Source: Halomonas denitrificans | GTDB taxonomy: Bacteria; Pseudomonadota; Gammaproteobacteria; Xanthomonadales; Wenzhouxiangellaceae | Assembly (NCBI GenBank): GCA_019800895.1 | Contig: JAHVKF010000001.1 | Location: forward strand, 434,001 to 498,000 | Direction: 5' to 3' | DNA: 64,000 nt | Shown here: in pieces, positions 30,419 to 33,436 of the stretch | How positions within the stretch are numbered: position 1 is the first letter of the stretch | Layout: every line of letters starts with the position of its first letter | Notes under the pieces: model-generated | Seen by the model: only the letters and a program-made list of their open reading frames with translations | What the model was told of the DNA's origin: nothing | Databases searched by the model: none | Program-made: the position numbers and the translations under genes

Positions 30419-31360
30419 ATGAGCGCAACGCCCCTGATCGTCTTCACGGACCCGGCCTGTGCCGGCCATGCCCCGCTCCCGGGCCATCCGGAGTGTCCCG
30501 AGCGGCTTCGGGCCGCCCTGGACGGCCTCGCCCAACTCGACGAACTCGACGTCCGCGAGGCCGAAGCGGTCAGCGGAGAATGCCTCGCCCGGATCCACCC
30601 CGCGCCCTATCTCGACGAGCTTGCAGGGGTGGAGCAACGAATCCGCTCCGAACAACGGTCGATCTCGCTGGACGGTGACACGCACGTCGGCCCCGGGAGC
30701 TTCGACGCGATCCGTCGCGCCGCCGGCGGCGCGTGCCAGGCGGCACGCACCGCGCTGGCCGACCGGGTCGCGACCTTCGCGGCCGTCCGGCCTCCGGGCC
30801 ATCACGCCGAGGCGGCGCGAGCGATGGGGTTCTGCGTCTACAACAACATCGCCCTGGCGGCGGCGGATGCATTGCACCGGCCGAGCGTCCGGCGCGTGGC
30901 GGTCTGCGACTTCGACGTCCACCACGGCAACGGCACCGAAGCCATCTTCGCCGGACGCGACGACGTGCTGTTCCTGTCCAGCCATCAACACCCGCTCTAT
31001 CCCGGAACGGGCGACCCGATGCTCGGCGTGGCGCCGAACGTGGTCAACGTCGGTTTGCCACCCGGCTCCGGAAGCAACCAGTTCCGCGACGCATGGCTGG
31101 CCGAGCTCCTGCCCGCAATCGACCGCTTCCAGCCCGACCTGGTGCTGGTGTCGGCGGGGTTCGACGCGCACTGGCGCGATCCGCTGGCGCAGCTCGAGCT
31201 CAAGGACGAAGACTATTTCTGGCTCGGCCACCAGCTGCGCGACCTCGCCCGAAGCCACTGCAACGGTGCTCTGGCCGCCTCGCTGGAAGGGGGCTACGAC
31301 CTCCAGGCGCTGACCGACTCGGTGCTCGCCTTCGCCGAGGGCATCACGTCCGCGCACTGA
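30419..31360 (+). CDS. Histone deacetylase family (acetoin utilization/APAH-like) hydrolase
   Basis: This zinc amidohydrolase has 313 residues from the ATG at 30419. RPPGHHAEAARAMGFCVYNN holds the catalytic histidine pair, CDFDVHHGNGTEAIF gives zinc ligands Asp and His, and LVSAGFDAHWRDPLAQL gives the second zinc Asp. Bacterial members deacetylate polyamines, acetylated proteins or acetoin-pathway enzymes; the substrate is unknown here. It begins 7 bases after the adenosyltransferase stop, and the longer frame starting at 30356 overlaps that gene. The two are probably one operon. Confidence 0.9.
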   Translation: MSATPLIVFTDPACAGHAPLPGHPECPERLRAALDGLAQLDELDVREAEAVSGECLARIHPAPYLDELAGVEQRIRSEQRSISLDGDTHVGPGSFDAIRRAAGGACQAARTALADRVATFAAVRPPGHHAEAARAMGFCVYNNIALAAADALHRPSVRRVAVCDFDVHHGNGTEAIFAGRDDVLFLSSHQHPLYPGTGDPMLGVAPNVVNVGLPPGSGSNQFRDAWLAELLPAIDRFQPDLVLVSAGFDAHWRDPLAQLELKDEDYFWLGHQLRDLARSHCNGALAASLEGGYDLQALTDSVLAFAEGITSAH

Positions 31361-31484
31361 GCGGGACCCGCGGCGGTGTCTTCTAGCGGATCTCTCCGGT
31401 CCGTTCGTCTCGCGAGTTAGCCCACGGGCCTTCCGGTGGTGTCCGGAGGATCGCGATCCAGCGGGCCAACGGATGATTGAAGGG

Positions 31485-31545
31485 ATCGAGCGAACGAAAG
31501 GGAAGCGACGTCACGAGCTCGGCATGCTCGGGTAAATGGTTCTTT
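31485..31545 (-). pseudogene. Decayed tRNA-Gly-like remnant
   Basis: Read on the minus strand, this stretch resembles the anticodon arm and 3' half of the intact tRNA-Gly 35 bases upstream. ACCCGAGC, a seven-base loop ATGCCGA and GCTCGTGA keep a perfect 5-bp anticodon stem, and the loop would read GCC, also a glycine anticodon. The acceptor 5' strand and a proper T arm are missing. It lies in the otherwise gene-free 219 bases between the histone-deacetylase-like gene and tRNA-Gly. Confidence 0.5.
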
Positions 31546-31579
31546 CCAGAAGGATTCCTGGCACCGGACAAGGGGAAGA

Positions 31580-31654
31580 TGGAGCGGGCGAACGGAATCG
31601 AACCGTCATCACGAGCTTGGGAAGCTCGGGTAATAACCATTATACGACGCCCGC
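31580..31654 (-). tRNA. tRNA-Gly (anticodon CCC)
   Basis: On the minus strand the gene starts GCGGGCGTCG and ends CGCCCGCTCCA, giving a perfect 7-bp acceptor stem with encoded CCA. The anticodon arm is CGAGC-TTCCCAA-GCTCG, giving anticodon CCC. The T arm contains GGTTCGATTCC. It is 75 bases including CCA. It lies 96 bases downstream of a BCCT transporter gene on the same strand. Confidence 0.95.
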
Positions 31655-31750
31655 GCCGCACGCCCATTATCGCCAGCGCCGGGGGCGCTGGCAAGGATCG
31701 GCGAGCGGGGCCGCCGGCCGAGCGCAGCGCCCTCGACCCCGGCCCGCGGC

Positions 31751-33373
31751 TCAGCTTCGCACAGCGTCCTGGTAGTCCATCAACTTCCGTTCGTGGTGCA
31801 GCCCGCGCGCCAGGCTGACGCACATGGCAAGCAGCACGACCGTGAACGGCAGGCCGGTGCTGATCGCTCCCGCCTGGAGGGCCTGCAGCGCGGCACTTCC
31901 GCCCACGCCGAGCAGGACCGCGGCCACCACGCCTTCGGTCGTCGCCCAGAACACGCGTTGCGGCACGGGCGCATCGATCTTGCCGCCGGAAGTGATCGAG
32001 TCGATCACCAGCGACCCGGAATCCGACGAGGTAATGAAGAACACCAGGACCAGGCAGATCGACAGGAACGAGGTGATCGCGGTCCACGGCAGTTCGGCCA
32101 GCATCTGGAACAGGGCGAGCGACGAATCGCCGATGCCCTCGGCGAGCGCGCCCGCCCCGGCCTCGACCTGGTCCAGGCCGTTGCCGCCGAAGGCGCTCAT
32201 CCAGATGACGGTGACGAAGGTCGGAACGATCAGCACTGCGGTCAGGAACTGCCGGACCGTTCGCCCGCGGGAAACACGGGCGATGAACATGCCGACGAAC
32301 GGCGACCAGGAAATCCACCACGCCCAGTAGAAGACGGTCCACGAGTGGTAGAAGGTCGTGTCCTCTCGGCCGATCGGGTTGCTGAGCGGCAGGATGTACT
32401 TCGCGTAGCCGGCGACCGTGTCGCCGAGATTGGTGAAGAACGACGCGATCGAACCGGCCACGATCACGAACAGCAGCAGCAGGGCCGCGAAGACCATGTT
32501 GACGTTGCTCAAAAGCTTGACGCCACCGTCGATGCCGCGGATCACCGAGATCACCGCCACGGCGGTGACACCGACGATGATCAGGATCTGGGTCTGCAGC
32601 CCCCCTTCCAGATCGAACAGGAACGACAGTCCGCTCGCGGCCTGCTGGGCACCCAGGCCGAGCGACGTCGCAAGACCGAACAGGGTCGCCAGCACGGCGA
32701 CCGTGTCGATCACGTCGCCGATCCGACCCCACACCCGGTCTCCGAGCAGCGGATAGAACGTCGACCGGATGGTCAGCGGCAGGCCCTTGTTGTAGGCGAA
32801 GAAGGCCAGCGACAGCGCAACCACGCCGTAGATCGCCCAGGCGTGCAGGCCCCAGTGGTACATGGTCGCCCCGACCGCCGCCTCGCGCGCCTCCGGGGTC
32901 AGGCCTTCCACGTTCAGCGGTGTGCCGAACCAGTCGGTGAAATAGCCCACCGGCTCGGCGACGCTCCAGAACATCAGGCCGATCCCCATGCCCGCGGCAA
33001 ACAGCATCGCGAACCAGGAGGCGACCGAGAACTCCGGTTCTGCATCGTCGCCGCCGAGGCGGATGCTTCCCATCGGCAGGACGATCAGCGCCAGGCAGAA
33101 CAGCACGAACAGATTGCCGGCCGACAGGAACAGCCAGTCGAAGGTCTCCACGATCCAGGTGCGAGCAGCCTCGAGTGCGGATTTCGAGCTTTCGGGAAAC
33201 AGTAGCGAGAGCAGCACGAAGGCAAAGATCAGCAACGTACTGACGAAGAAGACCGGGTTGTGCATGTCGAAGCCGAAGCGTTCGACGTTGTCCTGACCGA
33301 TCTCGTAATCGGTTTCGTAGATTTCCTCGATGTCCTGGAGCGCTTTCTTGGTGATCTTGGTTTCTGTGCTCAA
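31751..33373 (-). CDS. BCCT family transporter, copy 1
   Basis: This is a secondary transporter of the betaine/carnitine/choline family with about twelve membrane segments and 540 residues. The start is taken as TTG at 33373 (STETKITKKALQDIEE) because GGAGGA lies seven bases upstream; the in-frame extension to 33436 enters the porin gap. MFAAGMGIGLMF-type sequence in TM3 (LFAAGMGIGLMFWSVAEP) is the glycine-rich stretch of Na+-coupled members. The substrate-box region is FYWAWWISWSPFVGMFIARV. It likely brings in glycine betaine, choline or a related solute. It is closely related to copy 2 at 35024-36634 and follows the porin gene by 63 bases. Confidence 0.9.
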   Translation of the reverse strand: MSTETKITKKALQDIEEIYETDYEIGQDNVERFGFDMHNPVFFVSTLLIFAFVLLSLLFPESSKSALEAARTWIVETFDWLFLSAGNLFVLFCLALIVLPMGSIRLGGDDAEPEFSVASWFAMLFAAGMGIGLMFWSVAEPVGYFTDWFGTPLNVEGLTPEAREAAVGATMYHWGLHAWAIYGVVALSLAFFAYNKGLPLTIRSTFYPLLGDRVWGRIGDVIDTVAVLATLFGLATSLGLGAQQAASGLSFLFDLEGGLQTQILIIVGVTAVAVISVIRGIDGGVKLLSNVNMVFAALLLLFVIVAGSIASFFTNLGDTVAGYAKYILPLSNPIGREDTTFYHSWTVFYWAWWISWSPFVGMFIARVSRGRTVRQFLTAVLIVPTFVTVIWMSAFGGNGLDQVEAGAGALAEGIGDSSLALFQMLAELPWTAITSFLSICLVLVFFITSSDSGSLVIDSITSGGKIDAPVPQRVFWATTEGVVAAVLLGVGGSAALQALQAGAISTGLPFTVVLLAMCVSLARGLHHERKLMDYQDAVRS

Positions 33374-33436
33374 GAGTCCTCCCCGTTGCAATGCAGTTAC
33401 GATCGTTGCGGAAGTTCGAATCCCGGTTGCCAGCAA

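Follow-up and report, generated by a model that had tools for sequence, protein, structure and literature searches.

The window analysed here, a stretch of 64,000 nucleotides from the genome of Halomonas denitrificans, contains an intact gene for tRNA-Gly(CCC) which is followed downstream by a degenerate sequence corresponding to the 3' part of the same tRNA. Both had been recognised in the original prediction, which did not name their strand; they lie on the minus strand, between the genes listed below.

30422..31360, plus strand: gene of the histone-deacetylase family (PF00850), convergent, neighbour on the fragment side; the start codon is provisional
31483..31535, minus strand: degenerate 3' fragment of tRNA-Gly(CCC), equivalent to tRNA nt 22-74, with anticodon loop ATGCCGA (42/53 identical, ungapped)
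31536..31579, minus strand: spacer of 44 nt from the tRNA 3' end to the fragment
31580..31654, minus strand: intact tRNA-Gly(CCC) gene with encoded CCA end (ARAGORN; RF00005 59.4 bits over the whole model)
31666..31694, minus strand: sigma-70-like promoter TTGCCA-17-GATAAT, 5' of tRNA-Gly(CCC), a consensus match only
31751..33436, minus strand: gene of a BCCT-family transporter (PF02028), neighbour upstream of the tRNA

The intact gene, as predicted, is confirmed at 31654-31580 by both tools, and a consensus scan finds the promoter-like element once, against a mean of 0.0 in 50 shuffles. The nearest named loci retrieved via the deacetylase gene are mostly titled Wenzhouxiangella or Wenzhouxiangellaceae, and tRNA-Gly(CCC), BCCT and deacetylase genes are found together in 12 of 29 stretches (L118-L146) from related genomes. 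The interval between tRNA and deacetylase gene measures about 220 nt in the window; in the relative G004 (L119 6806-8044) it extends to about 1.2 kb and seems, by eye, rich in inverted repeats.

The fragment and its parent tRNA

Aligned without gaps to nt 22-74 of tRNA-Gly(CCC), the fragment is identical at 42 of its 53 positions (79%), with a local score of 31 that far exceeds the mean of 9.0 and the maximum of 17 obtained from 3000 dinucleotide shuffles of the flank; the possibility, raised at the outset, that the likeness is no better than between random hairpins can therefore be dismissed, and the presence of a decayed glycine tRNA copy is upheld. The best unrelated stretch of the window, among 1420 overlapping stretches on both strands, scores 19, and the pattern TTACCCGAGCNNNCCNAGCTCGTGA, built from both sequences, retrieves with up to three mismatches only the tRNA and fragment sites (mean of 0.00 in 100 shuffles). 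Two measures needed correction: the distance from the tRNA, given as 35 bases, amounts to 44 nt (31579-31536) up to the start of detectable similarity, and the copy spans 53 nt instead of about 60. The original description holds for the perfect anticodon stem (5 bp, all paired), for its loop, ATGCCGA, and for the absence of the 5' acceptor strand; the D-arm has likewise been deprived of its 5' portion.

The mismatches fall at tRNA nt 32, 34, 37, 47, 49, 52, 56, 57, 60, 68 and 71, several of them in the T-arm, where the T-loop TTCGATT reads TTCCCTT. ARAGORN makes no call on the fragment, nor does RF00005 match it at E up to 10. With its 5' acceptor strand gone, its T-loop broken and neither ARAGORN nor Rfam calling it, the fragment is a non-working tRNA: a functional gene would present a cloverleaf with acceptor stem, D-arm, anticodon arm and T-arm that the models recognise, whereas here significant similarity to a tRNA is combined with missing functional parts, as in a degenerate tRNA gene fragment or pseudogene. 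The sequence at 31535-31483 is, in these terms, an ordinary tRNA gene fragment. Might it nonetheless work as another kind of RNA, such as a hairpin of the tRNA trailer with a role in processing or regulation? The 25-nt piece covering the anticodon arm does fold better than most shuffles (z -2.3, with 8 of 200 as good), but the whole 53 nt fold no better than shuffles (z 0.4), no Rfam family matches at E up to 10, and G004, whose deacetylase comes closest to that of the window (79%), lacks a fragment; such a function is highly improbable.

The parent of the fragment can be recognised by comparison with the 43 distinct tRNA sequences that ARAGORN calls in the fetched stretches of the same genome, among which tRNA-Gly(CCC) scores highest (31), ahead of tRNA-Gly(TCC) (19). 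The anticodon of the fragment prompted the idea of an origin from a gene of GCC type, which the comparison does not support and indeed rules out: tRNA-Gly(GCC) scores only 10.5 against 31 for tRNA-Gly(CCC), so that the GCC of the fragment is a product of mutation. The RF00005 model matches 44 places in this genome. At a separate locus, L232 (G000:C4:42335-42404), the tRNA match is weak, 30.5 bits, just over the 29-bit cut-off, and may represent a degenerate tRNA.

Membership of a dispersed repeat family is not supported either. Of 43 family genomes, 11 contain the sequence GCTTCCCAAGCTCGTGA, with one mismatch, at a total of 12 places, all of them tRNA-Gly(CCC) genes or the fragments of the relatives G002 and G018 described below, a search which cannot reach the fragment of the window because its loop is too different. 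The left part of the latter (22 nt, three mismatches) matches only its own place in eight genomes. The single further match recorded in the genome of the window, C2:29808, lies inside an open reading frame which can be read, from its sequence, as a probable DNA cytosine methyltransferase.

tRNA-Gly(CCC) loci in related genomes

Altogether 24 tRNA-Gly(CCC) loci, 23 of the family and one from another family of the order, were compared with their own flanks over up to 600 nt per side, the sequence being shorter downstream in four (98, 124, 244 and 546 nt) and upstream in three (426, 464 and 526 nt). Copies of the tRNA 3' part lie downstream on the same strand in three of the 24, namely the window (score 31), G002 (50) and G018 (45.5), and begin 44 to 115 nt past the tRNA; upstream, none of the 24 loci gives a score above its own shuffles. 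A 27-nt remnant at the same site in G051 was left uncounted, its score of 13.5 not being clearly above the 13.0 of G001 and G017, and a partial match in G058 was discarded as a tRNA-Arg. The comparison with relatives, which had been proposed as a search for a second intact tRNA-Gly or an integrated element, has thus yielded 3' fragments in G002 and G018 but no element, and the only second ARAGORN call at the locus is the fragment of G018 itself.

The copy in G002 corresponds to nt 23-74 of the tRNA in that genome, with 51 of 52 positions identical, scores 26.8 against RF00005 and continues into a duplicate of the 3' flank, the next 72 nt agreeing at 71 positions; about 43 nt that separate it from the first flank remain unmatched (L118 2797-3035). 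This arrangement points to a partial tandem duplication of the 3' part of tRNA-Gly(CCC) together with 72 nt of flank, and favours duplication as the process there. A similar event may have occurred in the window: the 3' part of the tRNA, alone or together with flanking sequence, would have been copied downstream by replication slippage or by a template switch, for which the anticodon hairpin may have been the site; neither a complete gene nor an element would have been involved, and the copy would then have decayed. We consider this a serious but tentative possibility, somewhat short of even odds, with which the closeness of the fragments to the tRNA in all three loci agrees. A gapped alignment extends the copy in G018 into the D-arm, from tRNA nt 9 to 71, and its anticodon stem differs from that of its own tRNA; it scores 25.8 bits with RF00005, under the cut-off of 29, yet ARAGORN calls it a tRNA.

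Other relatives have lost part or all of the gene at this site. Only the 3' half of tRNA-Gly(CCC) is left in G048 (L135 5410-5480), close behind the preceding reading frame, and no intact copy was found in this incomplete genome. Among 30 deacetylase genes of the family, 14 have an intact tRNA within 1.5 kb, the one in G048 has the half just mentioned and 15 have no convincing tRNA; two of these 15 are flanked by no more than 2 and 236 nt of sequence, and six have the BCCT gene beside the deacetylase gene, which makes the site certain. Two of the six, G046 and G053 (L134, L137), have an intact tRNA-Gly(CCC) elsewhere, ahead of a different gene, and the same new neighbour accompanies the tRNA-Gly(CCC) of G049 (L140); at the usual site between BCCT and deacetylase genes, neither G046 nor G053 has a tRNA, which suggests that the gene has moved. 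Since tRNA-Gly(CCC) is missing from the usual site in relatives and the genome of the window also encodes tRNA-Gly(UCC), the CCC gene looks dispensable. Under standard wobble rules, tRNA-Gly(UCC) can decode GGG.

Possible origins of the fragment

How did the 3' part of a tRNA come to lie behind its parent gene? The 5' edge of the fragment is informative in this respect. Of the 21 nt that precede it, 3 agree with the portion of the tRNA that is lacking on the 5' side, against 42 of 53 in the body, and so few matches would arise under uniform decay at the rate of the body with P about 4e-10; a gapped search of the 5' side for the missing part scores under the shuffle mean. The edge, which lies 10 nt ahead of the 7-nt anticodon loop, is so abrupt that the 5' part must have been cut away or never have been there, and the fragment, judged from its sequence, is a 3' piece and not a whole gene decaying evenly. 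This bears upon the dead tandem gene of the original prediction, of which the decayed copy stands, whereas a once complete gene decaying evenly in place is disfavoured. A modified form of the idea, in which a complete second tRNA-Gly lost its function and decayed, with a deletion removing its 5' part, could call upon the extent of the G018 copy with its ARAGORN call and near-threshold RF00005 score, and upon the six relatives without a tRNA beside the BCCT and deacetylase genes, which suggest a spare copy free to decay. Given the rejection of uniform decay, and two ARAGORN calls at the locus in G018 alone, where the second is the fragment, this explanation seems quite unlikely.

The 3' edge provides weaker evidence than the 5' edge because both flanks diverge. 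Similarity past the tRNA 3' end is undetectable in the window (matched or exceeded by 593 of 3000 shuffles) and in G018 (by 500 of 1000), as opposed to the 71/72 of G002. Ending at the tRNA 3' end is not what a random duplication would favour, but the undetected similarity of the flanks is only moderate evidence against duplication, since likeness fades sooner between two flanks that both diverge than between a copy and a conserved tRNA. The spacer has no clear similarity to the flanks of relatives or to the sequence after the fragment; in 39 comparisons of spacer and post-fragment sequence with the flanks of 13 relatives, the lowest value was 9 of 300 shuffles as good, which decides neither for an element nor for duplication.

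The explanation that we prefer, with a probability of roughly 0.52, is that the fragment is a displaced piece left by a mobile element which inserted at the anticodon arm of the tRNA and was later lost. That an element integrated and was lost, and in which order the steps took place, we infer as follows. Recombination between element and chromosome, carried out by an integrase, would have taken place at the anticodon loop; the 3' half carried by the element would have restored the tRNA, the original 3' part being displaced downstream; deletion of the element would then have left 44 nt between tRNA and fragment, and the latter would have drifted to 79% identity, its anticodon changing from CCC to GCC. 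What is seen in the window is identity to tRNA nt 22-74, a sharp 5' edge, a downstream position on the same strand with the tRNA 3' end included, and no functional tRNA structure. This geometry fits the scar of an integrative element proposed originally, and the homologous tRNA of Pseudomonas aeruginosa is a phage target; yet no integrase is seen near the fragment in this genome or near those of G002, G018 and G048. Between tRNA and fragment there are 44 nt with no integrase gene, instead of a candidate island of 2-200 kb.

The absence of PF00589 integrases near the fragments speaks for duplication. The four PF00589 matches in the genome of the window are either on different contigs or at a distance of 165 kb or more; in G002 (three matches), G018 (four) and G048 (five), they lie on contigs other than those of the fragments or more than 360 kb away; the listing is complete for these four genomes, several of the genomes studied being fragmented. 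A distant 3' fragment that would mark an occupied site was not recognised in 43 family genomes, by a search in which only 19 candidates were scored in some genomes, six gave no match and very short att sites would escape. Three near-empty scars with no occupied site make an odd ratio, which counts against loss of an element, as does the duplicated flank of G002 (71/72), because simple integration makes none. An att-like pattern of 32 positions has no exact match in viral contigs; matches were found in 52 phage and 88 plasmid records, and among the best 20 of each the match is the tRNA itself, while none of the records among the matches listed covers 80% of the query.

One further sign comes from G002 and G018, which belong to different genera: ahead of the tRNA-derived part, their fragments have in common the motif GGYCACG, absent from their own tRNAs, and a 30-nt pattern including it (three mismatches allowed) is found in 2 of 398 genomes of the order. 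The motif, which the fragment of the window lacks, could be the common arm of an attachment site, and is the only hint of something unrecorded. It is doubtful, however, that an undescribed element repeatedly targets the tRNA-Gly(CCC) of Wenzhouxiangellaceae, inserting in the anticodon arm and leaving short scars.

Comparison with known systems

The fragment is a fresh instance of a well-known type of feature and matters little beyond annotation, where it illustrates neatly a scar of tRNA origin that is passed over by gene finders; across related species, the tRNA-Gly(CCC) of this locus is intact, partly copied, truncated or absent. In the tyrT repeats of Escherichia coli, associated with rtT RNA, the 3' end of a tRNA is repeated downstream together with its flank. 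These repeats resemble the situation in G002; the window differs from them in having a single fragment with no detectable repeated flank. New tRNA copies arise by duplication also at serTGA of Pseudomonas fluorescens SBW25, where the tandem duplications span 45-290 kb and contain complete tRNA genes (PMC7661048), compared with a fragment of 53 nt in the window.

A close likeness is to island-displaced tRNA fragments, which are 3' fragments of the neighbouring tRNA placed downstream in the same orientation and extending approximately from the anticodon arm to the tRNA 3' end (PMC4383910; PMC9897764); the window departs from them in having no integrase, no element and a gap of only 44 nt. The Islander account requires that they be downstream, on the same strand and reach the tRNA 3' end, and reports 3' fragments in 3760 of 3919 islands, with an anticodon-centred site in 2083 (PMC4383910). 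The anticodon loop with its palindromic stem resembles the core site of tyrosine recombinases and is a typical one (PMC8371274), and van der Gulik et al. 2023 (PMC9897764) expect prokaryotic genomes to be pervaded by remnants of integrative elements in the form of tRNA pieces.

The best phage match, record OQ658363.1 of a Pseudomonas phage, contains the tRNA-Gly(CCC) of P. aeruginosa, which is 90.7% identical to that of the window and has Pf prophage genes, including an integrase, on its 3' side, and 11.4 kb past the tRNA a same-strand 3' fragment of 30 nt (29/30 identical). The tRNA-Gly targeted by Pf integrases of this group is the one with CCC, and not those with TCC or GCC (PMC7549136). 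The two cases share a homologous target tRNA and a downstream same-strand 3' fragment ending at the tRNA 3' end; they differ in that the prophage is present in P. aeruginosa, with a gap of 11.4 kb, and in the fragment, which at 30 nt starts near the T-arm and hence reflects a type of site different from that of the window. The presence of a Pf prophage at the homologous tRNA raised our estimate for a displaced piece left by an element from 0.48 to the value given above, and slightly lowered that for duplication. No title on the tRNA-Gly(CCC) locus was found among the literature titles listed for Wenzhouxiangella and tRNA. If the scars come from one element, they would mark an integration site unrecorded for the family, at a tRNA which is used by phages in Pseudomonas.
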